Source of the DNA: Gordonia namibiensis NBRC 108229
GTDB taxonomy: Bacteria; Actinomycetota; Actinomycetes; Mycobacteriales; Mycobacteriaceae
Assembly (NCBI RefSeq): GCF_000298235.1
Contig: NZ_BAHE01000023.1
Location: 1-64,000 of the forward strand
Length of the DNA: 64,000 bases
Reading direction: 5' to 3'
Under the pieces are notes generated by a model. That model did no database searches. It was not told the DNA's origin and was given only the letters and a program-made list of their open reading frames with translations. This document shows, in pieces, positions 5,608-18,214 of this stretch. The translations under genes and the position numbers were made by a program. Position 1 is the stretch's first letter; the number at the start of each line of letters is the position of its first letter.

Positions 5608-6077
5608 GGGTTCTTCGCGGCCACGATCGCCGCACGTACCGCTTCCCGGCATTCCTCGCCGTGTGGTTCCCCGACGCCCAGGTAGTAGCTGCCCGGACGG
5701 CCGCTCTCGCCGGCGAAGCCGACCACTGCGAACCCGTCCGGGGATTCCGGTGTCTCGATCGAGGCGATCGCCAGCGGCACCGACAGCGCCGAGATCCCGC
5801 GCTTCGCCCCGGAGTTGGCGATCAGAAGGTGCGTCGGATGCAGGACGACGAGCGTCTGGTTCTCGGAGTCGGGGTCGACGGGGTTCGCGCGCCGGCCGAG
5901 CAATCTGCCGATCGTGGAGGAAGCGGGCGGGTTGATGCTCCGGGTGCTCCAGGCCGGCAGGTCGTCGGTGACGGTCAGTTGCCGCGACTCGGCATGGTCA
6001 CGCAACGCCGCCGCGACGTCGGCCGGAAGAGCGGACAAATCGGCGCGCACGGTGGTGCGCTGGTACGCGGGCCCCAT
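5604..6077 (-). CDS. Conserved protein of unknown function
   Basis: I do not recognise this 157-residue soluble protein. It has a charged N-terminus, a basic middle (IGRLLGRRANPVDPDSE) and a beta-rich C-terminal half (LVVLHPTHLLIANSGAKRG, FAVVGFAGE) that could be a PH-like fold. There are no membrane segments. Its ATG lies 80 bases inside the end of fprB in another frame. A later start inside fprB is possible, so the N-terminus is uncertain. Its stop overlaps the DMT transporter start. Confidence 0.6.
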   Translation of the reverse strand: MGPAYQRTTVRADLSALPADVAAALRDHAESRQLTVTDDLPAWSTRSINPPASSTIGRLLGRRANPVDPDSENQTLVVLHPTHLLIANSGAKRGISALSVPLAIASIETPESPDGFAVVGFAGESGRPGSYYLGVGEPHGEECREAVRAAIVAAKNP

Positions 6078-7593
6078 GGTCGATCAATCTATCCGAGAGT
6101 GCGCCGGTTTCGAGATCGGTGAGCAACGACGCCACCGTCTCCGCGGAGTCGGTCTTGTTGGTCCCGATGAAGCCCGACGGTCCACGCTTGATCCAACCGG
6201 TCACGTAGACGCCCGGAACCGGTTGCTCGCCGTCCATGACCCGGCCGGCGCGGTGCGGGATGACGCCGGTCGCGTCGTCGAAGGGCAGACCTGGCACGGC
6301 GACCCCGCGGTAACCGACCGAGGTCAGCACGAGTCCGGCGTCGACGGTGGTGGTCTCACCGGTCGGTTCGATCCCGGTCACGACACCCGCATCGTCGACC
6401 GTCAGCCGATTGCGGCCCACGACGACGCCGGTCGCGCGTCCGTGGTCGCCCGTCACCTCGAGCGGAGAACCGAAGAACGCCAAGCGGATTCGACGACCCT
6501 TCGGTTCGGCGGCGGCGCACTCGGCCAGGATGTCGAGCTTGGCGCGGATGGTGGCGTCGAGTTCGCCGTCCACCTGGGCGGATTCGAGATCGGCGGGATC
6601 CACGGTCACCGCGACACCCGAATCGACGAGCCCGATCAGCTCGGGCAGGGTGAACGCGGCGTGGGCGGGTCCGCGTCGTCCCAGCACGACCACCTCGCGC
6701 ACCGACGATTCGGCCAGCGCGGCCAGCGCGGCCGGCGAGATGGACGTGTCGGCGAGTGCCGCCGGGTCGGCGACGAGGATACGAGCGACGTCGAGCGCGA
6801 CGTTGCCGTTGCCGATGACCACCACGCGGTCGGTGGACAGGTCGACGTCGAGGTCGGTGAAGTCCGGATGGCCGTTGTACCAACCGACGAACGACGTGGC
6901 AGAGGTGACAGCCGCCTGATCGATCCCCGGCAGGTCCAGCGTCTTGTCGGTGGGGGCGCCGCCGGCCCAGATGACGCCCTGGTGGCGGGACCGCAGGTCG
7001 TCGAGTGTGATGTCGCGTCCCACCTCGGTGTCGAGCAGGATTTCCAGGTTCGGGTTGCGTGCGATGTCGTCGAACAGGCGCATCACCTTGCGGGTGTGCA
7101 GGTGATCCGGGGCGACGCCGAAGCGTGCGAGGCCGAACGGCCGGTCGAGGCGCTCGTACATGGTCACCGACACCTGGGGCTGCCGCAGTAGTTCGTCGGC
7201 GGCGTACATCGCCGACGGACCCGACCCGACGATGCCGATCGACACCTTTGCGTCGACCGCGAGCTGACGTGGCCGGTCGATCGGGGCGAGCGGAAGCCGG
7301 CGCGCGGGGTCAACCGGGAAACGTGCTGCCCCGTCGACGGTTTCGCGGTACTGCGCGGCGTTGACCTCCGCGAACCGCTCCTGGCCCTCGGGCAGCCGGT
7401 GGCCGGGAACGATGGCGCCGACGGGGCAGGCGCTGACGCAGGCGCCGCAGTCGACGCAGGTGGCCGGGTCGATGTAGAGCATCTCGGCGATGCCGAAATC
7501 CGGCTCTTCCGGGGTGGGGTGGATGCAGTTGACGGGGCATGCGTAGACGCACGACGCGTCGCCGCAGCACGCCTGGGTGACGACGTGAGGCAT
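5998..7593 (-). CDS. fprB: Ferredoxin-fused ferredoxin--NADP+ reductase FprB
   Basis: Residues 1-60 carry two cysteine clusters (CVYACPVNC and CVDCGACVSACPVGA), a 7Fe/8Fe ferredoxin domain. From about residue 115 comes an adrenodoxin-reductase-type oxidoreductase with the FAD motif GIVGSGPSAMYAADELL and the NADP motif VVVIGNGNVALDVARIL. This is the domain order of mycobacterial FprB, which moves electrons between NADPH and an iron-sulfur carrier. It is 531 residues, slightly shorter than the roughly 575 of FprB. It starts 36 bases after the diiron oxygenase on the same strand and is a plausible electron donor for it (inference). The last 25 residues are Arg-rich. Confidence 0.92.
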   Translation of the reverse strand: MPHVVTQACCGDASCVYACPVNCIHPTPEEPDFGIAEMLYIDPATCVDCGACVSACPVGAIVPGHRLPEGQERFAEVNAAQYRETVDGAARFPVDPARRLPLAPIDRPRQLAVDAKVSIGIVGSGPSAMYAADELLRQPQVSVTMYERLDRPFGLARFGVAPDHLHTRKVMRLFDDIARNPNLEILLDTEVGRDITLDDLRSRHQGVIWAGGAPTDKTLDLPGIDQAAVTSATSFVGWYNGHPDFTDLDVDLSTDRVVVIGNGNVALDVARILVADPAALADTSISPAALAALAESSVREVVVLGRRGPAHAAFTLPELIGLVDSGVAVTVDPADLESAQVDGELDATIRAKLDILAECAAAEPKGRRIRLAFFGSPLEVTGDHGRATGVVVGRNRLTVDDAGVVTGIEPTGETTTVDAGLVLTSVGYRGVAVPGLPFDDATGVIPHRAGRVMDGEQPVPGVYVTGWIKRGPSGFIGTNKTDSAETVASLLTDLETGALSDRLIDHGARVPAHHRARRFVRSSGRRRGGVA

Positions 7594-7629
7594 GAGGGTC
7601 GGTTCGCTACCTGTGGGTGAGAGGGGAGA

Positions 7630-8673
7630 TCAGGCGGCCGTGTAGGTGGGCTCGCTGCGGAAACGCGAAGGGCGGCCGTAGATTCCGAGCGCACGCCAGA
7701 GCAGGCGCGACACCGGGTTCATCAGACCGCTCTGGTCGGCGAGCATCCGGACGTCGCCGAAGACGTTGCGCAGGAAGCGCTTCGACTCCTCGGACCGCCA
7801 GAAGATGTCCTTCATGACCTCGCGCGGGACGTCGAACTCCTTGGCGAAGGAGCGCGGCGGCACCACGATCGCGCTGCACAGGGTACGCATGGTCAGCGGG
7901 AGCATGAGCGACAGCAGAAAACGCTGGAAGCGGTTGCGCTGCGGGACCTGCTCGCGGATGAAGTGGTGGGCGAAGGAGATGTGCCGCGCCTCTTCGGCCA
8001 CGTGAAGCTGCATGACCGCGGCCATCGTCGGGTGCAGGCGGGCGCGGGTCCGCAGGAAGTCTTTCTGGATGTGGTCGATCGGCTCTTCGCCGCCGAGGAC
8101 GCCGAAGAAGAACACGATCGGGAAGACCGTCGAGACCAGCGGGACGAACGGCGAGATCAGGCGGTATCCGATCTTCGCGCCGGGAACGTCCATGCCCACC
8201 CGGTTCACGAACTCCTGGAACATCAGGGTGTGGTTGCACTCCTCCTTGGATTCGTGCGTGGTGTACCGGAATTCGCGTGCACCATTGGGCAGTTTGAAGC
8301 TGTACTGCATCAGGCCGCGGATCAGGACGGACTCGAACTGCAGGCCGACCTTGGCGACGTTGGCCTGACGCCACATGCCGATCTCGATCTGCTTGCTCTC
8401 CGGAAGCTGCTGGTACCAGGGATGGCGGCCGATCGGGTCGACCTCGTAGGAGAGGATCCAGCGCGGATCGTTCTCGGTGATCGCCATGTGCGGCGCATCC
8501 CAGTCGATGTCCACGTAGGGATCGAAGTTGCGGTGAACCGAGGCCGAGGACAGGTCGTCGAGCACCTGTCCGTAGTCCTGCTGGCCGCCCGTTTTGTCGT
8601 GTTCGGGAACGTAGCGGGCCGGGCCGTCGCCGGCGGTGTGCAGGGAGTTCGGATTTGTCAATGCTTTGGTCAT
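7630..8673 (-). CDS. AurF-type diiron oxygenase
   Basis: The 347-residue protein matches the p-aminobenzoate N-oxygenase AurF / diiron-oxygenase family. Helix-borne metal ligands appear as ESKEECNHTLMF and HVAEEARHISFAHH, the EEARH signature. Relatives oxidise aryl amines or other small substrates using O2 and two electrons. The gene is first in a minus-strand operon with fprB next, a logical reductant. The ATG at 8673 has AAGGA 8-9 bases upstream. A promoter with TTGACA lies about 60 bases upstream. The native substrate cannot be deduced. Confidence 0.85.
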   Translation of the reverse strand: MTKALTNPNSLHTAGDGPARYVPEHDKTGGQQDYGQVLDDLSSASVHRNFDPYVDIDWDAPHMAITENDPRWILSYEVDPIGRHPWYQQLPESKQIEIGMWRQANVAKVGLQFESVLIRGLMQYSFKLPNGAREFRYTTHESKEECNHTLMFQEFVNRVGMDVPGAKIGYRLISPFVPLVSTVFPIVFFFGVLGGEEPIDHIQKDFLRTRARLHPTMAAVMQLHVAEEARHISFAHHFIREQVPQRNRFQRFLLSLMLPLTMRTLCSAIVVPPRSFAKEFDVPREVMKDIFWRSEESKRFLRNVFGDVRMLADQSGLMNPVSRLLWRALGIYGRPSRFRSEPTYTAA

Positions 8674-8731
8674 CGTCGCGTCCTTCGAGGTGGGCCGGGC
8701 TGCGTGAGGGCGGCCACAGCGGATGACTCGA

Positions 8732-8942: not shown

Positions 8943-10583
8943 ATGTCCCGTCGTGTCCCGTACGCGCCGGGACCGTTCCCGCCGCGTCGGCCGGAGCAGT
9001 TCCCGGCACGTCCCGCCGCGCGACCCGGCCCCGGCGGCCTCGGTGATCTCACGCCGCAACTGGTCGCCACCGACGTCTGGACCGAGGCGATGGTGGAGGC
9101 GGCGGGTATCCCGATCGTCGACGTCCCGTTCGTCACCGTCGGTTCGGGGATCGGTTCCTTCGTCACGGTCGACTATCTCCGGATCTGCGGTGTCCCGCTC
9201 GAGCAGATCGCGGTCCTCGGGCCGCAGGACGTGCCGTGGCACAGCTACGAGTACCTGACCCGGGTGTCACAGATCCCGCGCGGCGAACGACTCCGATCGG
9301 ATTCGGCCTCGACCCCCGACAACATCTGGGGGTTCCCGTCCTACGCCGTCCGCGAGGCGTGGGCCGACAAGACGATCAAGCCGCTGTGGAACGTCCTGGT
9401 GGAGCCGATCTTCGCGAACTACTACACCCCGAAGGCGGGACAGGCGTTCGAGTCGATGGAGAAGGAGTGTCAGCGCATCGGCTACCTGAAGTGCCTGCAC
9501 CGTGGGCAGGTCCGCATGATCCGACGCCGCGCGGGCGGCGGCTACTTCACGATCCTCACACCGCCACAAGGAAGTTCACCGACCAAGCGGGTGGCGTTCC
9601 GCAGTCGCTGGGTGCACGTGGCCATCGGGTACCCGGGGATCAAACTGTTGCCGGACCTGCAGGCGTTCCGTGAGACCTATCGCGACGCCAGCAAGGTCGT
9701 CAACGCCTACGAATCCCACGAACACGTCTACCAGTCCCTGCAGCGCAAACCGGGCACCGTCCTGATCCGCGGCGCCGGGATCGTCGCATCCCGTGTGCTG
9801 CAACGCCTCATCGACGACCGGGATGCGCTCGGCCTGCAGACGCAGATCGTGCACCTGTTCCGCACGTACTACGACAAGCCGCACGGCCCGCACATCTTCA
9901 TGCGGCGCAAGGGCAAGGACGGTTGGGCCTACCAGGGCTTCAACTATCCGAAATCGGTGTGGGGCGGCCAGCTCAAGGCGCGCATGCGCAAACTCGAGGG
10001 TCACGACCGCGCCGAGGCCTACAAACAGATGGGCGGCACCAACACCCCGATCCGTGACGACTGGCAGGAACAGCTCGCTCGTGGACGCCGCGAAGGCTGG
10101 TACCGCGCCGCGGTCGGCAAGGCCGAGAGCCTGGTTCCCGGGCCGGGCGGCCAGGGCGTGGTGACGACGGTTCGCGTAGACCCCCACGCCCCGATCAGGC
10201 AGGAGCACCGTCCGGACGGCACCTTCGAGCTGTACGCCGACTACGTCATCGACTGCACCGGGCTCGAGGCCGACGTGCGCGAACACCGGTTGCTGCGCGA
10301 TCTTCTCGACCACACCGGGGCGGGGATCAACCCGGTCGGCCGGATGGACGTCGAACGCGACTTCGAGCTGAAGGGCACCCGAAACGGCGACGGGAAGCTG
10401 TACGCATCGGGTAGTGCGACGCTCGGCGGGTACTTCCCGGGTGTCGACACCTTTCTCGGTCTGCAGATCGCCGCTCTCGAGATCGTCGACGACCTCGCGC
10501 GGCAGGGCTTCTGCAAGCGACTGACCCCGTGGCGTTCGACTGCCCAGTGGTGGCGATGGATGAACAACAAGGGAGTCGACTGA
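8943..10583 (+). CDS. FAD/NAD(P)-dependent oxidoreductase of unknown substrate
   Basis: This 546-residue protein starts with a Pro/Arg-rich tail (about 40 residues), then a Rossmann motif VTVGSGIGSFVTVDYLR and a second dinucleotide-binding motif VLIRGAGIVASRVLQRLI near residue 280. Late conserved motifs YVIDCTGLEAD and SATLGGYFPG resemble class B flavin monooxygenases and lysine N-hydroxylases. GGAGGAAG precedes the ATG. It is the first gene of a five-gene operon encoding a membrane protein, a zinc-ribbon/FHA protein, an antiporter and a kinase-like protein. Its stop overlaps the next start by one base (TGATG). A redox sensor or enzyme coupled to the antiporter is an inference. Confidence 0.7.
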   Translation: MSRRVPYAPGPFPPRRPEQFPARPAARPGPGGLGDLTPQLVATDVWTEAMVEAAGIPIVDVPFVTVGSGIGSFVTVDYLRICGVPLEQIAVLGPQDVPWHSYEYLTRVSQIPRGERLRSDSASTPDNIWGFPSYAVREAWADKTIKPLWNVLVEPIFANYYTPKAGQAFESMEKECQRIGYLKCLHRGQVRMIRRRAGGGYFTILTPPQGSSPTKRVAFRSRWVHVAIGYPGIKLLPDLQAFRETYRDASKVVNAYESHEHVYQSLQRKPGTVLIRGAGIVASRVLQRLIDDRDALGLQTQIVHLFRTYYDKPHGPHIFMRRKGKDGWAYQGFNYPKSVWGGQLKARMRKLEGHDRAEAYKQMGGTNTPIRDDWQEQLARGRREGWYRAAVGKAESLVPGPGGQGVVTTVRVDPHAPIRQEHRPDGTFELYADYVIDCTGLEADVREHRLLRDLLDHTGAGINPVGRMDVERDFELKGTRNGDGKLYASGSATLGGYFPGVDTFLGLQIAALEIVDDLARQGFCKRLTPWRSTAQWWRWMNNKGVD

Positions 10584-11032
10584 TGCTGCCCACCCTGTGG
10601 GGACGTATCCAGACCCGCGTGCTGGTGCTGGGCGTCCTCGGCGGGGCGTGGACCGTCGTGTTGGCTCCGTTCCTGTGGCTGATCTCGTCGGGTGACCCCA
10701 CCGTCTTCGAGGTCTACCGCGTCGCGTTCACGGTGTTGTTCACCGTCATCGTGCTCGGTGTCGCCTGGGAGTTCGTCTACCACTTCCTGCAGCAGTTCCG
10801 CTGGGAGAAGGACTGGCCCATCCTGCTCGGTCTGCTCACCGCGATCAACGAGGGCATCGTGGTGTGGCTCGTCGTCGACAAGACAGGTCTGCTGCCGGCG
10901 GAGCTGCGACCGTCGCCGTTGGTGTTCACCGTCCAGTTCCTCACCACCTGGCTGCTGGTGTGGGTCGCGGTCAACGGTCCGCTGCGAGTGATCTTCCCGC
11001 ACTGGCGATTCCAAGGAGGCCGGTTCCTGTGA
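10583..11032 (+). CDS. Four-helix membrane protein of the FHA/antiporter operon
   Basis: I do not recognise a named family. The 149-residue protein has four predicted membrane helices (about residues 12-33, 46-66, 78-98 and 113-133) separated by short loops. One loop, FLQQFRWEKDWP, is charged. The ATG lies in a TGATG junction with the upstream oxidoreductase, and the stop overlaps the next GTG in GTGA, so all three are co-translated. It could anchor the soluble partners or be a subunit of the downstream antiporter (inference). Confidence 0.7.
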   Translation: MLPTLWGRIQTRVLVLGVLGGAWTVVLAPFLWLISSGDPTVFEVYRVAFTVLFTVIVLGVAWEFVYHFLQQFRWEKDWPILLGLLTAINEGIVVWLVVDKTGLLPAELRPSPLVFTVQFLTTWLLVWVAVNGPLRVIFPHWRFQGGRFL

Positions 11033-12381
11033 CCATCCCGGGTGACATCCCCAGCGTGACCCCGACGGTGACGCTGATCCCCGGTGCGGGGATGGTGATC
11101 CGCAAACCGGCGTTCCTCTGCCTGATCTCCGACACCGTGCCCGCGGCGTTCATCACCGACCTGCTCGACGTCGAATCCGCGGTGTCCGTCCCGGATTCGG
11201 CACCCCGGCGTGGTCGTCATCTCGTCCGCGCGCTGGCGCAGCTCGTGCTCACCGCCGATGAACAGATCGACATCGCGTTCGCCGCGCCCGACAACGTCGG
11301 GATCGCGATCTTCATGTCGGGGCGGGTCTACGGCGAGACCGACGGAAAGCGGATCGGACCGCCCCCCGGCGACACCTACGACAAGGCCATTCCGTGGCCG
11401 TTCGAGGGACTCGGTCTCTACCTCGAGGGCACCGTCCCGGCGGAGGTCGGCGAGGAGCGTTTCGACCTGGTCGACGGTGTCGTGCCCGCCGCAGGGGCGT
11501 TGCTGCACACACCGCTCGGGTTGCGCGGCACCGAATTCCACCCGCTGCCCGCGTCGACGCAGACCCCGGCGACCGAGCCGGAGCCGGAGCCGGAGCCCGA
11601 ACCCGAACCCGAACCCGAACCGAAGCCAGAACCGGAACCCGTTGCCGGCGACCCCGATCCGATGGGGACGACCGAGCGGATGCGACCGGAGGTCGCCGAG
11701 CCACTGCCGTTCACGTCGACCCCGCTCGGCGGGACGCCGGTCGGGCAACCGGACCCGGTCGAACCTCTCCCGACGGATCCGATGCCGGCCGCACCCGTTG
11801 TCCGACCGAGCCCGTTCGCCGAGCCCCTCGAACCGCGCGCCCCGCTGCCGAAGGAAGAGCATCAGCGTCCCGCGACCGAGGTCGTGAAGATCGAGGCGTC
11901 GCGGGCCAAGGTGCACGGGATCCGTTGCTCGCGAGGGCACCTCAACCACCCACAGTCATGGCTGTGCGGCGTTTGCGGCATCCGGATGGATCAGCTGACG
12001 ACCTTCCTGGTGGAAGGGGAGCGGCCGCCGTTGGGTTGGCTGCTGCTCGACAACGGCTTCACCTTCCTGCTCGACGAGGACCTGGTCATCGGGCGCGAAC
12101 CCGGGTCGTCCGGCGGTGGACGGGCGGGTTCGCCGAAACCGATTCGCGTGCAGGACGAGACCGGCCAGCTGTCACGCCGGCACGTCGAGATCCGGTTGGT
12201 GGAGTGGACCGTCCAGCTCGTCGACCTCGGCTCGGCGAACGGCACCTTCGTCGCCGACCCGAGCAGTGGGAACCGCGAGGTGCGCCTGCTCCCGCACCGT
12301 CCACACGTCCTGGTCCCGGGGTCGCATGTACGAATCGGAGGGCGCCACTTCATCTTCGAGTCGCACCATGCGCGGATCTGA
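11029..12381 (+). CDS. Zinc-ribbon and FHA domain protein with Pro-Glu linker
   Basis: The 450-residue protein has an unassigned N-terminal alpha/beta domain (about 1-170) and an acidic proline-rich linker of repeated Pro-Glu (about 180-205), followed by more proline-rich sequence. A putative zinc ribbon follows (CSRGHLNHPQSWLCGVCG, about 300-317), then a C-terminal FHA domain (about 345-445). The FHA phosphothreonine-binding motifs are intact: IGRE, LSRRHVEI and DLGSANGTFV. FHA domains read threonine phosphorylation made by Hanks-type kinases. The GTG start is preceded by AAGGAGG at 9 bases and overlaps the upstream stop. With a kinase-fold neighbour two genes away, it is probably the signal adaptor of the operon. 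Confidence 0.85.
   Translation: MTIPGDIPSVTPTVTLIPGAGMVIRKPAFLCLISDTVPAAFITDLLDVESAVSVPDSAPRRGRHLVRALAQLVLTADEQIDIAFAAPDNVGIAIFMSGRVYGETDGKRIGPPPGDTYDKAIPWPFEGLGLYLEGTVPAEVGEERFDLVDGVVPAAGALLHTPLGLRGTEFHPLPASTQTPATEPEPEPEPEPEPEPEPKPEPEPVAGDPDPMGTTERMRPEVAEPLPFTSTPLGGTPVGQPDPVEPLPTDPMPAAPVVRPSPFAEPLEPRAPLPKEEHQRPATEVVKIEASRAKVHGIRCSRGHLNHPQSWLCGVCGIRMDQLTTFLVEGERPPLGWLLLDNGFTFLLDEDLVIGREPGSSGGGRAGSPKPIRVQDETGQLSRRHVEIRLVEWTVQLVDLGSANGTFVADPSSGNREVRLLPHRPHVLVPGSHVRIGGRHFIFESHHARI
11566..11645 (+). repeat. Hexamer tandem repeat coding a Pro-Glu linker
   Basis: About twelve copies of a GAGCCG/GAACCC-type hexamer lie in frame inside the FHA-protein gene and encode alternating Glu and Pro. Early units are GAGCCG, later ones GAACCC, suggesting block-wise growth by slippage. 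Length may vary between strains. Confidence 0.75.
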
Positions 12382-12398
12382 GACGGCCGGGACCTGAG

Positions 12399-14522
12399 AT
12401 GGACAAGCACACGGTCGCATTCCTCCTCCTGGACGTCGCGGTCATCATCGCGGTCGCCCGCGTCGGCGGGATGATCGCGCGTGCGGTGCGGCAACCGGCC
12501 GTCGTCGGCGAGATCGCGGCCGGGATCGCCCTCGGGCCGAGCCTTCTGGGGCTCCTCCCCGGAAACCCCGACCAGTGGCTGTTCCCCGAAGAGGTACGGC
12601 CACTCCTCGGTGGCCTCGCCCAGATCGGGCTCGTGCTGTTCATGTTCATCGTCGGGCTCGAACTCGACATGCGACTGACCCGCGGCCGTGAGCGGGCGGC
12701 GGCGAGCATCTCCGCATGCTCGATCGTGCTTCCGTTCGGACTCGGTGCGGCACTCGGGCTTCTGCTGTACCCGTCGCATGACACCGTCGGCGGAGTCGAG
12801 ATCGAACGGCTCGGCATGGTCCTGTTCATGGGCGTCGCGATGTCGATCACCGCGTTCCCCGTGCTGGCGCGCATCCTCGCCGACCGCGGGATGATGCGGA
12901 CCGTCCCCGGCGTCTTCAGCCTGGCAGCGGCCGCGGTCGACGACATCCTCGCCTGGACGTTGCTCGCGTTCATCATCGCGATCATCGAGGGCGGCAGTCC
13001 GCTGGAAGTCGCGAAGATCGTCGGGATGACCCTGGTGTACGCGGTCATCATGTTCGGGATCGTGCGTCCGCTGCTGGCCAAGCTGGTCGAGTGGCGCGAC
13101 GCGGCGGGACGCCTGACCCCGGACATCCTGGCGGTCATCCTCATCGGTGTGTTCCTGTCCTCGGCTGCCACCGACGTCATCGGCATCCACCAGATCTTCG
13201 GTGCCTTCATGTTCGGTGCGGTGATGCCCAAGGTCGGTGCCGAGCAGCTGCACCGCGAGATCCTGGAGCGGCTCGAACAGGTCAGCGTGCTGCTGTTGTT
13301 GCCGATGTTCTTCGTCGTCACCGGCCTGAGCGTCGATCTCGCGGGGATCGGACTGTCCGGGCTCTGGCAACTGGGCCTGGTGCTCGTCGTCGCGATCGCC
13401 GGCAAGTTCCTCGGCGCCTACGCGGGCGCCCGGGTCTCGGCGATCCCCACACGTCAGAGCGCGGCCATCGCCGTGCTGATGAACACCCGCGGTCTCACCG
13501 AGCTGGTGATCCTCTCGGCGGGACGCGATCTCGGTGTCCTCAGCGACGACCTCTTCGCGATGCTCGTGGTGATGGCACTGGTGACGACGGTGCTGACCGA
13601 ACCCCTGCTGCGGCTCGTCTACCCGGACACGGTGGTGGCCAACGACATCGCCGCGGCCGAACGTCGGGCCCTGGCCGCGGCGACCGCCCCGCGGGTGCTG
13701 GTGGTGTTACGCGACCCCGACGGCACGGTCGAGGACCTCCGCGCACGACACCGTCGATTGCTGGACTGCGCAACGGGTTACGACGTCGTGCTGGCCGGAC
13801 TGCTCACCATGACGGACAAACCGGCCCGACGTCTCGAGGTCGGCGTGCCGGTGGTACCCGATTTCGCGGCCATGGCCTCCGCCGTCGAGAAGCTGAACCT
13901 GCTCGGTGCCTCGCTGACCGGAGCCGGATCGGTGTCGGTCCTGTGCCGCTTCGGATCCGACCCGGCCGCCGACCTCGACGCGATGGCCCGCAACGCCAAC
14001 GCCGACGTGATCGTCATCGACGCCGCCGACCGCGCCCTCGGCGAGATGTTGCGCGCGGCACCGGTGGCGATCGTCGACGAGAACGCCGCAGCCGGTGCGG
14101 CACCCAGCCGCAGCGTCATCACCTGCGAGGTCGCGGACAGTCGCAGCGGTCGGACCGCCGCCGTGGTGGGCGCCGGACTGGCGTTGTTCGGGTCTCGTTC
14201 CCTCACGATCGTGTCCACCGGTTCACGGCGGCGCTGGCTCGCCGACCTGCGGCCCGTGATCGAGCGCGGTGTCCGGGTCTCCCTCGTCGAGCCGAAGCGT
14301 CACCGCGGCGAGGACGCCGCCTTCACCGTCGCCGCCGCTGCCGACGACCCCACTCACATGCGTGGTCCGGACATCCCGGTGACCGTCGTCGACAACACCG
14401 AGACCAGCGAAGAAGCACTGGGTGACCGGATGACCACGCTGTACGCCGAGGCGACGGCACCGACCGACCCCACGCCGAGCGCCGGCACCGGTTCCACCAC
14501 GTCATCACCAGAGAGGCACTGA
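12399..14522 (+). CDS. CPA2-family cation/proton antiporter with large cytosolic tail
   Basis: Residues 1-420 hold about twelve membrane helices of the Na+/H+ exchanger fold, with the family stretches GEIAAGIALGPSLLG and FIVGLELDM. A paired acidic motif VDD (Asp181-Asp182) matches the ion-binding site of electrogenic CPA2 exchangers. Residues 430-707 form a soluble tail with two stretches resembling UspA-like nucleotide-binding folds (PRVLVVLRDPDGTVED; RTAAVVGAGLALFGSRSL). Expected role is K+ or Na+ for H+ exchange, gated by the tail. It lies 17 bases after the FHA gene, and its stop is one base before the kinase-like gene. The ion is not certain. Confidence 0.85.
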   Translation: MDKHTVAFLLLDVAVIIAVARVGGMIARAVRQPAVVGEIAAGIALGPSLLGLLPGNPDQWLFPEEVRPLLGGLAQIGLVLFMFIVGLELDMRLTRGRERAAASISACSIVLPFGLGAALGLLLYPSHDTVGGVEIERLGMVLFMGVAMSITAFPVLARILADRGMMRTVPGVFSLAAAAVDDILAWTLLAFIIAIIEGGSPLEVAKIVGMTLVYAVIMFGIVRPLLAKLVEWRDAAGRLTPDILAVILIGVFLSSAATDVIGIHQIFGAFMFGAVMPKVGAEQLHREILERLEQVSVLLLLPMFFVVTGLSVDLAGIGLSGLWQLGLVLVVAIAGKFLGAYAGARVSAIPTRQSAAIAVLMNTRGLTELVILSAGRDLGVLSDDLFAMLVVMALVTTVLTEPLLRLVYPDTVVANDIAAAERRALAAATAPRVLVVLRDPDGTVEDLRARHRRLLDCATGYDVVLAGLLTMTDKPARRLEVGVPVVPDFAAMASAVEKLNLLGASLTGAGSVSVLCRFGSDPAADLDAMARNANADVIVIDAADRALGEMLRAAPVAIVDENAAAGAAPSRSVITCEVADSRSGRTAAVVGAGLALFGSRSLTIVSTGSRRRWLADLRPVIERGVRVSLVEPKRHRGEDAAFTVAAAADDPTHMRGPDIPVTVVDNTETSEEALGDRMTTLYAEATAPTDPTPSAGTGSTTSSPERH

Positions 14523-14523
14523 C

Positions 14524-15336
14524 ATGGCCACAGTCGAGATTCCGCAGCAGCTCGCGGATTTCACCGTGCTCCAGAAGCTCGGAGTCGGCGGCAACGGAAC
14601 GTTCTATCTCGCCGTGCCGCCCGCGCGCCTCGGGCTGGCCACCGACCGCGTGGTGGTCAAGGTGTTCAGCGGGGTGTGCAGCGACGACGCCTACCGTCGC
14701 GGCGTCCGGGAACTGCGTGCGTTCGCCGCGGTCGCCTCGCCCTACCTGGCCGGTCTTTACGACGCGGTGCTACAGGGCCAGTTCATGTACGCGATGGAGT
14801 TCTTCCCGATGGGATCGCTCGGCACACCTGCACGTCCCCTCAGCCGGGACGAACGTCTGGCCGCGGTCGCCGACGCGGCGCGCGGTGTCGATGCCCTGCA
14901 CGAGGCCGGCATCGCCCATGCCAACATCACCCCGTCGAGCATCATGGTGACCGAGACGGGCGGGAAGATCTCCGATCTCGGGCTCGCCCGCGTGCTCGCG
15001 GCCGACGAACCGATCACCAGCTTCGCCCAGCCCGGAGCCGTGCAGTACATGGACCCGGCACTGCTGGCCGGTGACGTGCCGTCCCGCGCGACCGACATCT
15101 GGTCTCTCGGAGCATGTCTGCACCGTGCACTCACCGACGAAGGGGTGTATGGAGAGGTGCCCGACGCCCAGCCGCTGCTGGCGATCCGGGCCGCCCTGTC
15201 GACGCCACCCGCCCTGTCGGAGAAGCTCGACCGCGACGAGCGCACGCTGATCGCCAACTGTCTGGCGCTGGCCGGGACCCGGCCGTCGACCGCGCTGCAG
15301 GTGGCCGAACGGATCGACGCCCTGCGGGGTCGTTGA
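14524..15336 (+). CDS. Cytosolic kinase-fold protein lacking the catalytic Asp (pseudokinase)
   Basis: The 270-residue protein spans a single Hanks-type kinase domain with no membrane segment. It keeps the glycine loop GVGGNG (20-25), Lys46 (VVVKVF), a helix-C Glu63 and the metal-binding Asp151 in DLG. The catalytic loop reads HANITPSS (132-139) where active kinases have HRDLKPxN, so the catalytic Asp, Lys and Asn are Asn134, Thr136 and Ser139. It may bind ATP but should phosphorylate poorly or not at all. It begins one base after the antiporter stop. Pseudokinases commonly act as regulated scaffolds; control of the antiporter with the FHA protein is inferred. Confidence 0.85.
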   Translation: MATVEIPQQLADFTVLQKLGVGGNGTFYLAVPPARLGLATDRVVVKVFSGVCSDDAYRRGVRELRAFAAVASPYLAGLYDAVLQGQFMYAMEFFPMGSLGTPARPLSRDERLAAVADAARGVDALHEAGIAHANITPSSIMVTETGGKISDLGLARVLAADEPITSFAQPGAVQYMDPALLAGDVPSRATDIWSLGACLHRALTDEGVYGEVPDAQPLLAIRAALSTPPALSEKLDRDERTLIANCLALAGTRPSTALQVAERIDALRGR

Positions 15337-15348
15337 CATCGTTGCCGG

Positions 15349-16839
15349 TCATCCGAGGGGCGCGGTGCGCCACCAGCCGTCGAGGATCTGCCGGCCGGAA
15401 TGGCCCGGCCACGTGGTGATCACCGTGAACGGCTCGCGCACCGGTTCGACGAAGTTGGTGACCACCCAGCCGTCGGCGAGGCTGTCGCGGCTCGACGATG
15501 CGGGGCCGTCCCGCCACTGGATCTTGTCACCCGGATAACCCTCGAGCGGTGCAGTGACGCTGTCCCGGGCGCCAGGGGTGGCGGTGTGCCAGACGACGTA
15601 GGTGACCTCCTCGGCGTCGGAGCAGGCGATGGCGTCGAGACCGTCGCGGAACATGGCCTGACAGGACGCATCCCGCCATCCCTGCTGATCGGGGGAGTCG
15701 GGCAGCAGTCGTGGGAAGGCATCGGCGATCGGTGCGACCGTCGACGGCCACGGCGGTGGCGCGTTGCGCGCGCCGAGGACGACCACCGCGCCCACACAGA
15801 CCGCGACCACGACGAGCGCCACCAGGACCGGTGCGATGTTCTGGCGTCGTCGCGCGGCAGCAGAACCGGAAGTCGGCCGGCCAGAACGGGACTCGACATC
15901 CCGGTGGTGACCCCCGGGGTGTGCGACGACGACCTCGGTCGGCCGATCGGGATGCCCGGCGGGGTGGAAGACCCGCGGTGCGGGATCGATGTTCTCGGTC
16001 GGTGGCTCCCCGTCGGTGTGGGTGAGGTGGAGAGCGAGGTCGGCGGCCCGGACGAACTCGGCGCAGGTCCGATACCGGTGATCGGGGTCCGGATCGAGAG
16101 CCCGTGCCAGGACAGAATGGAAAGCGGGTGAGACGTCGCCGGAAACACGGTGCCGGGCAACCGATGTGGTCCCGGTCAGGAGTTCGACGAGTGTGCGTCC
16201 GAGGGCGGCCACGTCGGAGTCCGGGTGCGGGGTGTCCTCTCCGGCGGCGGGTGGCGACAGGCCGAACCCGCGCAGCGTGACCGCACCCGGGTCGGTGATG
16301 TCGGATGCGGTGATCTCGGCGGCGGGATCTCGGCCGGTCGTGATCAGGATGTCGGCGGTGGTGACACCGCCGTGCACCAACCGTCGACGATGGGCGGCGT
16401 CGAGTGCCTCCCCGACCGCGGCCACGATCCGCACGGCCAGATCGATGTCGATGCCGTCGGGGTGGCGTCGGAGGAGTTCGGCCGCGTCGGTGGTGGGCAC
16501 CGGCACAGTGGCGACCCACAACCGGCCATCGGTGAGGCCGTGTCCGGCGATCCGGGCGATCGCGGGATTCCTGATGCCCGAGGCCAATTCATTGGAGTGG
16601 GCGAACCAGCTGCGGAACCGGGCATCGGCGGAACGCGCGGGGTCAACGACGGTGAGCACGACCGGGTCGGGTGCCGACCGACCCGGGGGAGTGGGAGTCG
16701 GCGGCACCGGGACCGCGCGACAGGTCGTGCCGAAGTCGGATCTCCGGAGCACCCACTCGATGCGATGCGCGGCGATGATCGACCCCGGAACGACCGAGCC
16801 GCGCACGGGCGAAGCGCCGCGGGTGACGTCGAAGGACAC
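15349..16839 (-). CDS. Membrane-anchored degenerate kinase with extracytoplasmic domain
   Basis: Residues 15-270 follow a Hanks-type kinase fold but lack key residues. The ATP-anchoring Lys is replaced (VVLTVVD), the catalytic loop reads HGGVTTAD instead of HRDLKPxN, and DFG is GFG. A low-complexity linker (270-330), one membrane helix (about 335-355) and an outside domain of about 140 residues with two Cys follow. This is the receptor-kinase layout of PknB-like proteins, but inactive. GGGAG lies 6 bases before the GTG at 16839. It converges on the cytosolic pseudokinase gene with only 12 bases between their stops and probably belongs to the same system. Confidence 0.8.
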   Translation of the reverse strand: MSFDVTRGASPVRGSVVPGSIIAAHRIEWVLRRSDFGTTCRAVPVPPTPTPPGRSAPDPVVLTVVDPARSADARFRSWFAHSNELASGIRNPAIARIAGHGLTDGRLWVATVPVPTTDAAELLRRHPDGIDIDLAVRIVAAVGEALDAAHRRRLVHGGVTTADILITTGRDPAAEITASDITDPGAVTLRGFGLSPPAAGEDTPHPDSDVAALGRTLVELLTGTTSVARHRVSGDVSPAFHSVLARALDPDPDHRYRTCAEFVRAADLALHLTHTDGEPPTENIDPAPRVFHPAGHPDRPTEVVVAHPGGHHRDVESRSGRPTSGSAAARRRQNIAPVLVALVVVAVCVGAVVVLGARNAPPPWPSTVAPIADAFPRLLPDSPDQQGWRDASCQAMFRDGLDAIACSDAEEVTYVVWHTATPGARDSVTAPLEGYPGDKIQWRDGPASSSRDSLADGWVVTNFVEPVREPFTVITTWPGHSGRQILDGWWRTAPLG

Positions 16840-17205: not shown

Positions 17206-17320
17206 GGTGACCACCACGCTACACGCCACGGCGTGAAGGACTTAGTGCTCATTGATGCCGCCGGTTCCCGGGAGCAGGATGGAGGTCGAGGACCCGGCCT
17301 CCATCAGGCGGTCGTGGCCA

Positions 17321-17345
17321 GAGGAGATGAGCCCAGAGGAGATGA
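17321..17345 (+). repeat. Duplicated GAGGAGATGA motif at the ribosome binding site
   Basis: GAGGAGATGA occurs at 17321-17330 and 17336-17345. The second copy provides the Shine-Dalgarno GAGGAG 9 bases before ATG 17351. Each copy also contains an in-frame ATG too close to its own GAGGAG to use it, which is why 17351 is taken as the start. Confidence 0.6.
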
Positions 17346-17350
17346 CCGAC

Positions 17351-18214
17351 ATGAACGCGATACTCGTCGGCGTGGACGGTTCGGACGCGGCCACCGGCGC
17401 GGTGCGATGGGCGGCCAAGGCCGCGGCGGCGGAAGGCCTCGACCTCAAGATCGTCGGCGCCTACGACGCGAGCACCAGCGACTACGCGCCCGGCCTGATC
17501 ATCCCGCAGGACGTCGTCGACGCCATCCGGCAGGACGCCTCGGATGCCGTACATGCCGCGAACGACGTCGCCAAGGCGGCAGCACCGAACGTCAGCGTGA
17601 CCACGTCGATCGTCGACGGCGACGCGGCGCGCGTGCTCCTCGAACTCGGCAAAGACGCCGCGATGATCGTGATCGGAACCCGCCGGCTGGGAAGTGTGAA
17701 GGGCCTGTTCCTCGGTTCGGTGAGCATCAACGTGGCGGCCCACGCACACGGCCGCGTGGCCGTCGTCGCCGCGGAGGGCTCCGACACCGGCCCGGTCGTG
17801 GTCGGCGTGGACGGTTCGCCGATCAGCGACGTGGCCGTCGCCGAGGCGTTCCGGCAGGCGTCGCTCCGCAACGCCCCGCTCGTCGCGGTCCACACCTGGA
17901 CCCCGCTCGACGCCGACGCCCTGCACGGGTACGGGATCGGGCACGACGAGGTCGAACGGATGACCCAGGACGCGGTCGAAGTGCTCGCCGAGCGGCTGGC
18001 CGGGTACGCGCAGGACTACCCGGACGTCCGGGTGGAACGCCGCGTACTGCCCGAGGAGCCGGCCAAGGCGCTGCTCGACGCGGCCGGAACCGATGCCCAG
18101 CTCGTCGTCGTGGGCAGCCGCGGACGCGGCGGATTCCGCGGACTCATGCTCGGCTCGACCAGCCAGAAGGTCATGCACAACGCCGAATGCCCGGTGCTGG
18201 TGGTGCGCAACTGA
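17351..18214 (+). CDS. Tandem-domain universal stress protein
   Basis: The 287-residue protein contains two Usp domains (about 1-140 and 150-287). Each begins with VGVDGS and ends with the nucleotide-binding pattern (GTRRLGSVKGLFLGSVS; GSRGRGGFRGLMLGSTS). In mycobacteria such ATP-binding tandem Usps are induced in hypoxia or stasis. Upstream, GGACTTA near 17238 resembles half of a DosR box, but the other half does not match. SoxR follows 25 bases later, transcribed separately or together. Confidence 0.92.
   Translation: MNAILVGVDGSDAATGAVRWAAKAAAAEGLDLKIVGAYDASTSDYAPGLIIPQDVVDAIRQDASDAVHAANDVAKAAAPNVSVTTSIVDGDAARVLLELGKDAAMIVIGTRRLGSVKGLFLGSVSINVAAHAHGRVAVVAAEGSDTGPVVVGVDGSPISDVAVAEAFRQASLRNAPLVAVHTWTPLDADALHGYGIGHDEVERMTQDAVEVLAERLAGYAQDYPDVRVERRVLPEEPAKALLDAAGTDAQLVVVGSRGRGGFRGLMLGSTSQKVMHNAECPVLVVRN

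Follow-up and report, generated by a model that had tools for sequence, protein, structure and literature searches.

Described systems and the Gordonia cluster

Control of membrane transport by FHA domains and kinases is a known kind of regulation, and several described systems resemble parts of a six-gene cluster (A to F, positions 8943..16839) found in a 64,000-nucleotide stretch of the Gordonia namibiensis genome, here called the window. The cluster encodes a putative flavoprotein (A), a four-helix membrane protein (B), an FHA adaptor (C), a cation/proton antiporter (D) and two kinase-like proteins (E and F). In mycobacteria, the pseudokinase MviN and the FHA protein FhaA form a phosphorylation-dependent pair for which PknB supplies the phosphate, as described in PMC3989709. 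In the Kef system the gene for a flavin oxidoreductase (KefF) lies upstream of that for a CPA2 antiporter (KefC); the oxidoreductase is described as ancillary to transport, and its enzyme activity as not itself needed to activate KefC (PMC10224563). The universal stress protein Rv2623 is described as docking through phosphothreonine on the FHA domain of the transporter Rv1747 (PMC5549992), and an archaeal operon is described that encodes a zinc ribbon-FHA protein, a calcineurin-like phosphatase and a vWA protein (PMC7016017).

The cluster shares with MviN-FhaA the pairing of a pseudokinase with an FHA protein and a phosphate that would come from another kinase, the binding between C and E being proposed here from sequence. 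MviN acts in peptidoglycan synthesis according to the same account (PMC3989709), whereas E is a free cytosolic protein; C also differs in carrying a zinc ribbon and a new N-terminal domain, and its neighbours are a flavoprotein, a four-helix protein and an antiporter. As in Kef, a flavoprotein gene (A) lies upstream of a CPA2 antiporter gene (D). However, in the Kef system as described (PMC10224563), KefF is a small (~20 kDa) flavin mononucleotide quinone reductase, whereas A has 546 amino acids and belongs to another family; KefC carries an RCK/KTN domain, whereas D has no RCK match and is separated from A by two genes; and no phosphorylation parts figure in that description. Rv1747, together with PknF and Rv2623, is similar in that an FHA domain, a Ser/Thr kinase and a universal-stress module are described as regulating a transporter via phosphothreonine (PMC3908365, PMC5549992). 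In those accounts Rv1747 is an adenosine triphosphate (ATP)-binding cassette (ABC) exporter with its own FHA domains, whereas in the cluster the FHA protein and the transporter are separate and any Usp-like part would be the tail of the transporter. The FHA proteins GarA and OdhI of Actinobacteria, described as being under Ser/Thr kinase control and as regulating metabolism (PMC12321487), and the archaeal operon, with a zinc ribbon-FHA pairing similar to that of C in another setting (PMC7016017), are further likenesses.

The reading that we favour, tentatively and with somewhat less than even confidence, is that the cluster encodes a phosphothreonine-regulated membrane unit for redox and ion exchange, in which the FHA adaptor and the (pseudo)kinase form a portable control pair. 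It would tie the orphan families A and B to phosphothreonine signalling and ion exchange. The same FHA partner occurs with an intact kinase in other genera, with a dead and conserved kinase in Gordonia, and without E in Nocardia, a natural experiment in which what pseudokinases do on replacing active kinases is directly testable. No description of this gene set, of a GlgE-linked pair related to C and E (see below), or of the repeated change of an FHA-paired kinase into a pseudokinase was found in a search of the open-access literature, with subscription journals mostly outside it.

The FHA adaptor C and its kinase-like partner E

The C gene (11029..12381, + strand) encodes an adaptor of 450 amino acids, composed of an N-terminal domain, a Pro/Glu linker, a CHCC zinc ribbon and a C-terminal FHA domain recognised by Pfam (PF00498, 36.9 bits against a cut-off of 20.7, E 4.9e-9). 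The zinc ligands C300, H304, C313 and C316, as well as the FHA phosphopeptide residues R356, S382, R383, H385, N404 and G405, were invariant in the 38/38 C sequences that were aligned (of 77). The best PDB sequence matches to the FHA part were GarA and OdhI, which are single small FHA proteins not known to have a zinc ribbon, membrane partner or pseudokinase neighbour.

The E gene (14524..15336, + strand) encodes a cytosolic pseudokinase of 270 amino acids, which matches Pfam Pkinase (E 1.8e-21) and showed no membrane segment in a hydropathy scan. The ATP-binding Lys and the DFG Asp are kept in 65/65 E proteins (a set that includes some species twice), as VVVK and DLG in the window. In the same set the catalytic Asp of the HRD motif is replaced by Asn in 13/13 Gordonia sequences and retained in the 52/52 others. 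The motif reads HAN in the window protein, where neighbouring residues of the catalytic loop are also lost (HANITPSS for HRDxKPxxN). E was nevertheless present in 23/23 Gordonia loci, 58-99% identical to the window protein. The ratio of nonsynonymous to synonymous substitution rates (dN/dS), estimated in five Gordonia pairs within the length of the window protein, was 0.02-0.08 for E. The corresponding ranges were 0.04-0.10 (A), 0.10-0.30 (B), 0.08-0.18 (C) and 0.11-0.18 (D), and among all six genes the lowest value belonged to E in four pairs and to A in the fifth. An active site that was lost in a protein so strictly conserved suggests that the Gordonia kinase-like partner could act as a docking platform rather than as an enzyme. 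MviN carries a flippase domain; no MurJ/MviN flippase fusion was found in the cluster, E consisting of a kinase domain only and F showing a single strong membrane-spanning segment without any match to a flippase.

Weaker relatives of E (E', 228-288 bits) were detected in seven genomes of the order without A and in one with A, and all eight adjoin a relative of C (C'; loci L182-L189). A profile comparison between C and six C' sequences gave a probability of 100 (E 8.5e-44) over 398 columns, nearly the whole length. Five of the C'/E' pairs are located among glycogen genes (L184-L188), confirmed above cut-off for GlgB and GlgE in L184, GlgX in L185 and an alpha-glucan phosphorylase (GlgP) in L188; a maltokinase-like protein in L184 scored below cut-off, and for L186 and L187 the similar glycogen genes were identified only by eye. 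Two other pairs lie beside a trehalase-like gene (below the curated cut-off in L182, by eye in L183), and the remaining pair adjoins an ABC-exporter-like gene (L189, below cut-off). The catalytic Asp is missing in 8/8 E' proteins, which carry HRN, HRA or HRG. In the kinase tree the E' proteins form two clades (support 100 each) apart from the Gordonia clade (94), with a weak deep placement (60), which implies that the catalytic Asp was lost independently at least twice, and probably three times.

C and E could thus be regarded as a portable FHA adaptor-kinase cartridge of the Actinomycetota, in which the kinase would have lost catalysis at least twice and probably three times while staying beside its FHA partner and, in Gordonia, under strong constraint. 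The kinase may serve as a docking and ATP-sensing platform that receives phosphate from other kinases, and the pair may steer either membrane redox and ion exchange or alpha-glucan and trehalose metabolism. We hold this proposition as possible rather than probable. The same reserve applies to a broader explanation, that C-E serves widely as an FHA/(pseudo)kinase cartridge in the response to water or osmotic stress, acting on varied effectors (ion exchange; trehalose or alpha-glucan storage), with the redox part of the Gordonia cluster as one effector. It would account for C'/E' pairs that adjoin GlgE, GlgB, GlgX, GlgP, maltokinase-like, trehalase-like and ABC-exporter-like genes, and it agrees with the close profile match between C and C'. 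However, the stress theme comes from these neighbours only, the zinc ribbon is absent from the C' proteins of the glycogen group, and Nocardia has C without E.

Linkage of the genes and a proposed redox and ion-exchange unit

The A gene (8943..10583, + strand) encodes a protein of an unnamed family, putatively dependent on flavin adenine dinucleotide (FAD) and nicotinamide adenine dinucleotide (phosphate) (NAD(P)), in which glycine-rich dinucleotide motifs lie around residues 67-72 and 276-280 and a TG motif at 439-440. The glycines of the dinucleotide motifs are invariant, even in distant homologues. No match to A above cut-off was found in Pfam or NCBIfam, and none in the PDB by sequence or profile; the best database hint was a weak, below-cut-off similarity to Trp_halogenase (E 0.0012, in 8/34 members). 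The nearest named A proteins are those of Gordonia amicalis (95% identity) and G. alkanivorans (97%). Two irregular A genes, which could reflect either decay or assembly errors, were observed. In L026 (genome G130) a second, short piece of A contains an in-frame stop, and in L048 (G033, 74% complete) A is split into two frames; the split gene was excluded from the protein alignments.

The B gene (10583..11032, + strand) encodes a membrane protein of 149 amino acids with four hydrophobic segments in a simple hydropathy scan and no Pfam family above cut-off. Its conserved motifs are GR.QTR, WE..YH...Q.RW.KDWP, NGP.R and WR..G.R, and many of the invariant residues would lie at ends read as cytosolic. 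A heme-b reading of B was rejected, as H67 is the sole invariant His and a bis-His heme is therefore unlikely. Identity to the window protein was 62-87% for A across 33 relatives, and 43-89% for B, 37-67% for D and 43-97% for E.

The D gene (12399..14522, + strand) encodes a CPA2 cation/proton antiporter of 707 amino acids, with a NapA-like core and a cytosolic tail (Na_H_Exchanger PF00999, 179.6 bits against a cut-off of 26.2, E 1.1e-52). It aligns to T. thermophilus NapA across 392 residues, with the Asp-Asp pair and the Lys aligned, which we take to be the ion-site residues of NapA. The second Asp and the Lys were invariant in 19/19 sequences, and the first Asp is Val or Ile in Thermomonospora, Planomonospora and Streptosporangium members; across 64 D proteins the Asp-pair motif was DD in 53 and ND in one, with the pattern unmatched in 10, several of which have the first Asp replaced. 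D scored below the cut-off of NCBIfam subfamily TIGR00932 (146.7 vs 238.3 bits) and below those of the KefB and KefC models (58.5 vs 804 bits and 49.2 vs 752 bits, respectively), with no RCK-type match. The UspA-like tail proposed for D by an earlier reading of the window made from its sequence alone (the sequence-only reading) had no Pfam match to Usp (PF00582) in the window protein, although Usp was recognised in the tail of a deep homologue (L191, 34.3 bits against a cut-off of 24). The idea that the Ser/Thr-rich tail is a conserved phospho-acceptor was also considered and rejected: the tail seems specific to Gordonia, and the Shine-Dalgarno sequence of E accounts for its ERH end (see below).

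Among 200 genomes of the order, strong matches to A (23) and to B (23) fell in an identical set of 23, with the two genes adjacent in each. A weak A match in G018 (E 4.4e-4), where the long open reading frames are not A-like by eye, and a weak B match in G171 (E 4.1e-5) had been dropped before counting. With the 12 best candidates scored per genome, strong matches to E (at least 384 bits) were present in 20/23 of the genomes with A and in 0/177 of the others; one of the three A genomes without a strong E match is 74% complete. The co-occurrence of A, B and E is far from chance when genomes are taken as independent, a figure that relatedness inflates. The genera with A include Gordonia, Nocardia, Antrihabitans, Geodermatophilus, Blastococcus, Klenkia and Pseudonocardia, together with Nocardioides, Occultella, Thermomonospora, Planomonospora, Dactylosporangium and others.

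The best 80 of 226 A relatives from a scan of genome contigs were compared as loci, with D and E counted at profile scores above 500 and 250, respectively. A-B-C-D-E was found in 51 of them, A-B-C in 24, A-B-C-E in two and A-B in three; the contig ends within 3 kb after A in the three A-B and in two of the A-B-C loci, and the Plantactinospora A-B-C locus has 6 kb. Eight of the 37 Gordonia genomes without A were examined at the same site, where the flanks are kept with no match to A-F (above 55 bits) between them. The scattering that would have spoken against the sequence-only reading was therefore not seen in most of these loci: A to E stand together in 51/80, and 8/8 empty Gordonia sites examined lack all six. 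This linkage, which recurs across genera and includes the exact co-occurrence of A and B, is beyond chance.

Other lineages yielded two A homologues that are very distant (~24% identity). At the first locus (L191, 1-6532) a kinase, a CPA2 antiporter with a Pfam Usp tail, A', B' and an FHA protein are all encoded within 6.5 kb, and the second (L192, 1-6000) contains B', A' and a kinase, with no antiporter in 6 kb; B' was identified from its location and from the GR.QTR at its start, without a Pfam match. The gene combination looks old, since these deep versions keep similar neighbours.

In the regulated redox and ion-exchange unit that we favour, the genes would form a chromosomal and apparently mostly vertically inherited system of Actinomycetota, made up of two modules. 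In the first (A-B-C), the soluble flavoprotein A would work with its four-helix membrane partner B, and C would tie both to threonine phosphorylation through its FHA domain. The second (D-E-F) would comprise the NapA-like antiporter with a regulatory tail, the cytosolic kinase E and the membrane kinase F. In genera with intact kinases, E and F would write phosphothreonine marks and C would read them and bind to the A-B complex, the antiporter tail or both, so that ion exchange might be switched with redox or with water or osmotic stress. Since E is a pseudokinase in Gordonia, with the ATP-site Lys and the DFG Asp, the phosphate would have to come from other kinases; 16 other Pkinase matches are present in the source genome. 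Gordonia E would then most likely serve the FHA domain of C as a docking platform, either phosphorylatable or ATP-sensing, much as MviN serves FhaA. In this scheme all physical interactions are inferred, as are the signal, the ion exchanged, what A acts on, the direction in which control runs, and the coupling of C and E to the antiporter; the osmotic or water-stress theme, drawn from the other C-E contexts, is a suggestion only.

Several observations weigh against this unit. The pseudokinase state of E is found in Gordonia only, with the catalytic Asp present in every non-Gordonia E (52/52). D is on the A strand in 19/51 loci and on the opposite strand in 32/51, and a single transcript is therefore not universal. 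The spread of A is patchy, both in the phylum (14/396 genomes, two of them distant) and in Gordonia (22/59 genomes). The FAD/NAD(P) assignment of A is made from motifs only, no Thr conserved across genera was seen in the D tail, and the redox or envelope sensing of the sequence-only reading is conjectural; as KefF activity is described as dispensable for activating KefC, the Kef analogy does not require a redox-active A. In 20 Nocardia loci A-B-C is followed by 10 kb without D or E. E was absent (E <= 1e-40) from 13/13 Nocardia genomes searched whole, and full-length D was found in 0/13, with 12 matching the transport domain only (<=450.6 bits) and one nothing, so that the antiporter is not obligatory. 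In Antrihabitans stalagmiti, D and E lie side by side, apart from A-B-C. The Nocardia loci and this split mark A-B-C as the core of the cluster and D-E as a partner module that can be separated from it, and antiporter gating is the weakest step of the scheme because Nocardia lacks D. The earlier proposal that the FHA protein and pseudokinases gate the antiporter is consequently only partly sustained: the dead E with its low dN/dS and the pairing of 8/8 dead E' with C' speak for it, whereas E is dead only in Gordonia, and A-B-C without D or E in Nocardia indicates that gating is not the sole job of the FHA protein.

The Nocardia loci also bear on the explanation that A-B-C alone is the functional system, namely a phospho-regulated, membrane-bound flavoenzyme (with, for example, a quinone or lipid substrate), D, E and F being accessory and acting indirectly through ion balance or sensing. 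We regard this as possible, though somewhat doubtful. It is consistent with the strict pairing of A and B in 23/23 genomes, with the identity range of A, narrower and higher than those of B, D and E, with the 20 Nocardia loci that have A-B-C only and the 13/13 Nocardia genomes lacking E and full-length D, and with L192, where A', B' and a kinase occur without an antiporter. It is harder to reconcile with D and E adjoining A-B-C in 51/80 loci, with D' beside A'-B' in L191, and with the absence of the whole block at eight Gordonia sites.

The membrane kinase F and the surroundings of the cluster

The F gene (15349..16839, - strand) encodes a membrane-anchored pseudokinase of 496 amino acids, with one strong transmembrane segment at 331-362 in the hydropathy scan and a C-terminal domain predicted to be extracellular. 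It scored below the Pfam kinase cut-off (17.7 vs 23.1 bits) and matched NCBIfam and PADLOC kinase profiles (best 7.4e-17 and 1e-24), which are generic kinase matches. In the window protein the VAIK Lys is absent, HGG replaces HRD and GFG replaces DFG, so that all three catalytic residues are lost; the term degenerate kinase used in the sequence-only reading is right for F, and for E with its HAN. In G. oryzae and G. polyisoprenivorans, by contrast, HRDVKPANI and DFG are intact. Among the 23 Gordonia loci (species partly included twice), F was intact in four, degenerate in 10 and unmatched beside E in nine, and its dN/dS was 0.21-0.32 in three pairs with a dead F and 0.14 in the pair with an intact F. 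In the tree of A, D and E, 16 Gordonia form one clade (support 84) in which the intact-F species are nested, so that the catalytic Asp of E was probably lost first and F then decayed or disappeared on more than one occasion.

The state of F raises the possibility that the whole control layer is decaying in Gordonia and that the cluster persists only for the sake of A, B and D, which would fit an F that is dead or missing in most of the loci and evolves faster (dN/dS 0.14-0.32). Since E is retained in all 23 loci at 58-99% identity and with a dN/dS of 0.02-0.08, and the FHA residues are invariant in the aligned Gordonia C proteins, we consider this improbable. An anti-phage or conflict system using kinases is very improbable: E and F match the PADLOC kinase models PD-T4-6 and mad6, but the matches are spread over many kinase models, as generic similarity predicts, A-D match none, the Gordonia copies with known flanks are mostly at one chromosomal site, and a phage collection gave no match and a plasmid collection one, to an 11.85-Mb chromosome-sized record.

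The A and B genes overlap in TGATG and the B and C genes in GTGA, with gaps of 17 bases between C and D and of one base between D and E; F is convergent with E, with 12 bases between them. The six genes, their order, the overlaps, the gaps of 1-17 bases and the convergent F were confirmed as first read from the sequence, and the four-helix B, the zinc-ribbon/FHA C and the CPA2 antiporter D were borne out by the hydropathy scan, the conserved residues and the Pfam FHA and Na_H_Exchanger matches. A promoter and terminator scan gave nothing above chance.

The flanks of the empty Gordonia sites consist of a ferredoxin-fused reductase and AurF on one side, and of a small membrane-protein gene, Usp and MerR on the other. 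At these sites (L164-L171), AurF and the small membrane-protein gene are separated by ~4.4-7.3 kb of different sequence. In the A-bearing Gordonia with known flanks the block is at the same site, except in G. jinhuaensis (L058) and two further genomes (L178 and L179). Window positions 5998-8688, which encode a ferredoxin-fused NAD(P) oxidoreductase and an AurF-type N-oxygenase, flank the cluster in Gordonia; as these genes are kept at the eight empty sites examined, they are outside it. A tandem Usp protein (17252-18214) is encoded just past F in Gordonia and also at the empty sites examined, and is likewise a neighbour, although a universal stress protein that docks on the FHA domain of a transporter has been described in mycobacteria (PMC5549992).

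At the junction between D and E, the last codons of D (GAG AGG CAC) resemble the Shine-Dalgarno sequence of E. In the window (14511-14526, GAGAGGCACTGACATG) this Shine-Dalgarno-like sequence encodes the C-terminal ERH of the antiporter, an end found in 9/11 of the named Gordonia listed and explained by the overlapping constraint that the Shine-Dalgarno sequence of E imposes.

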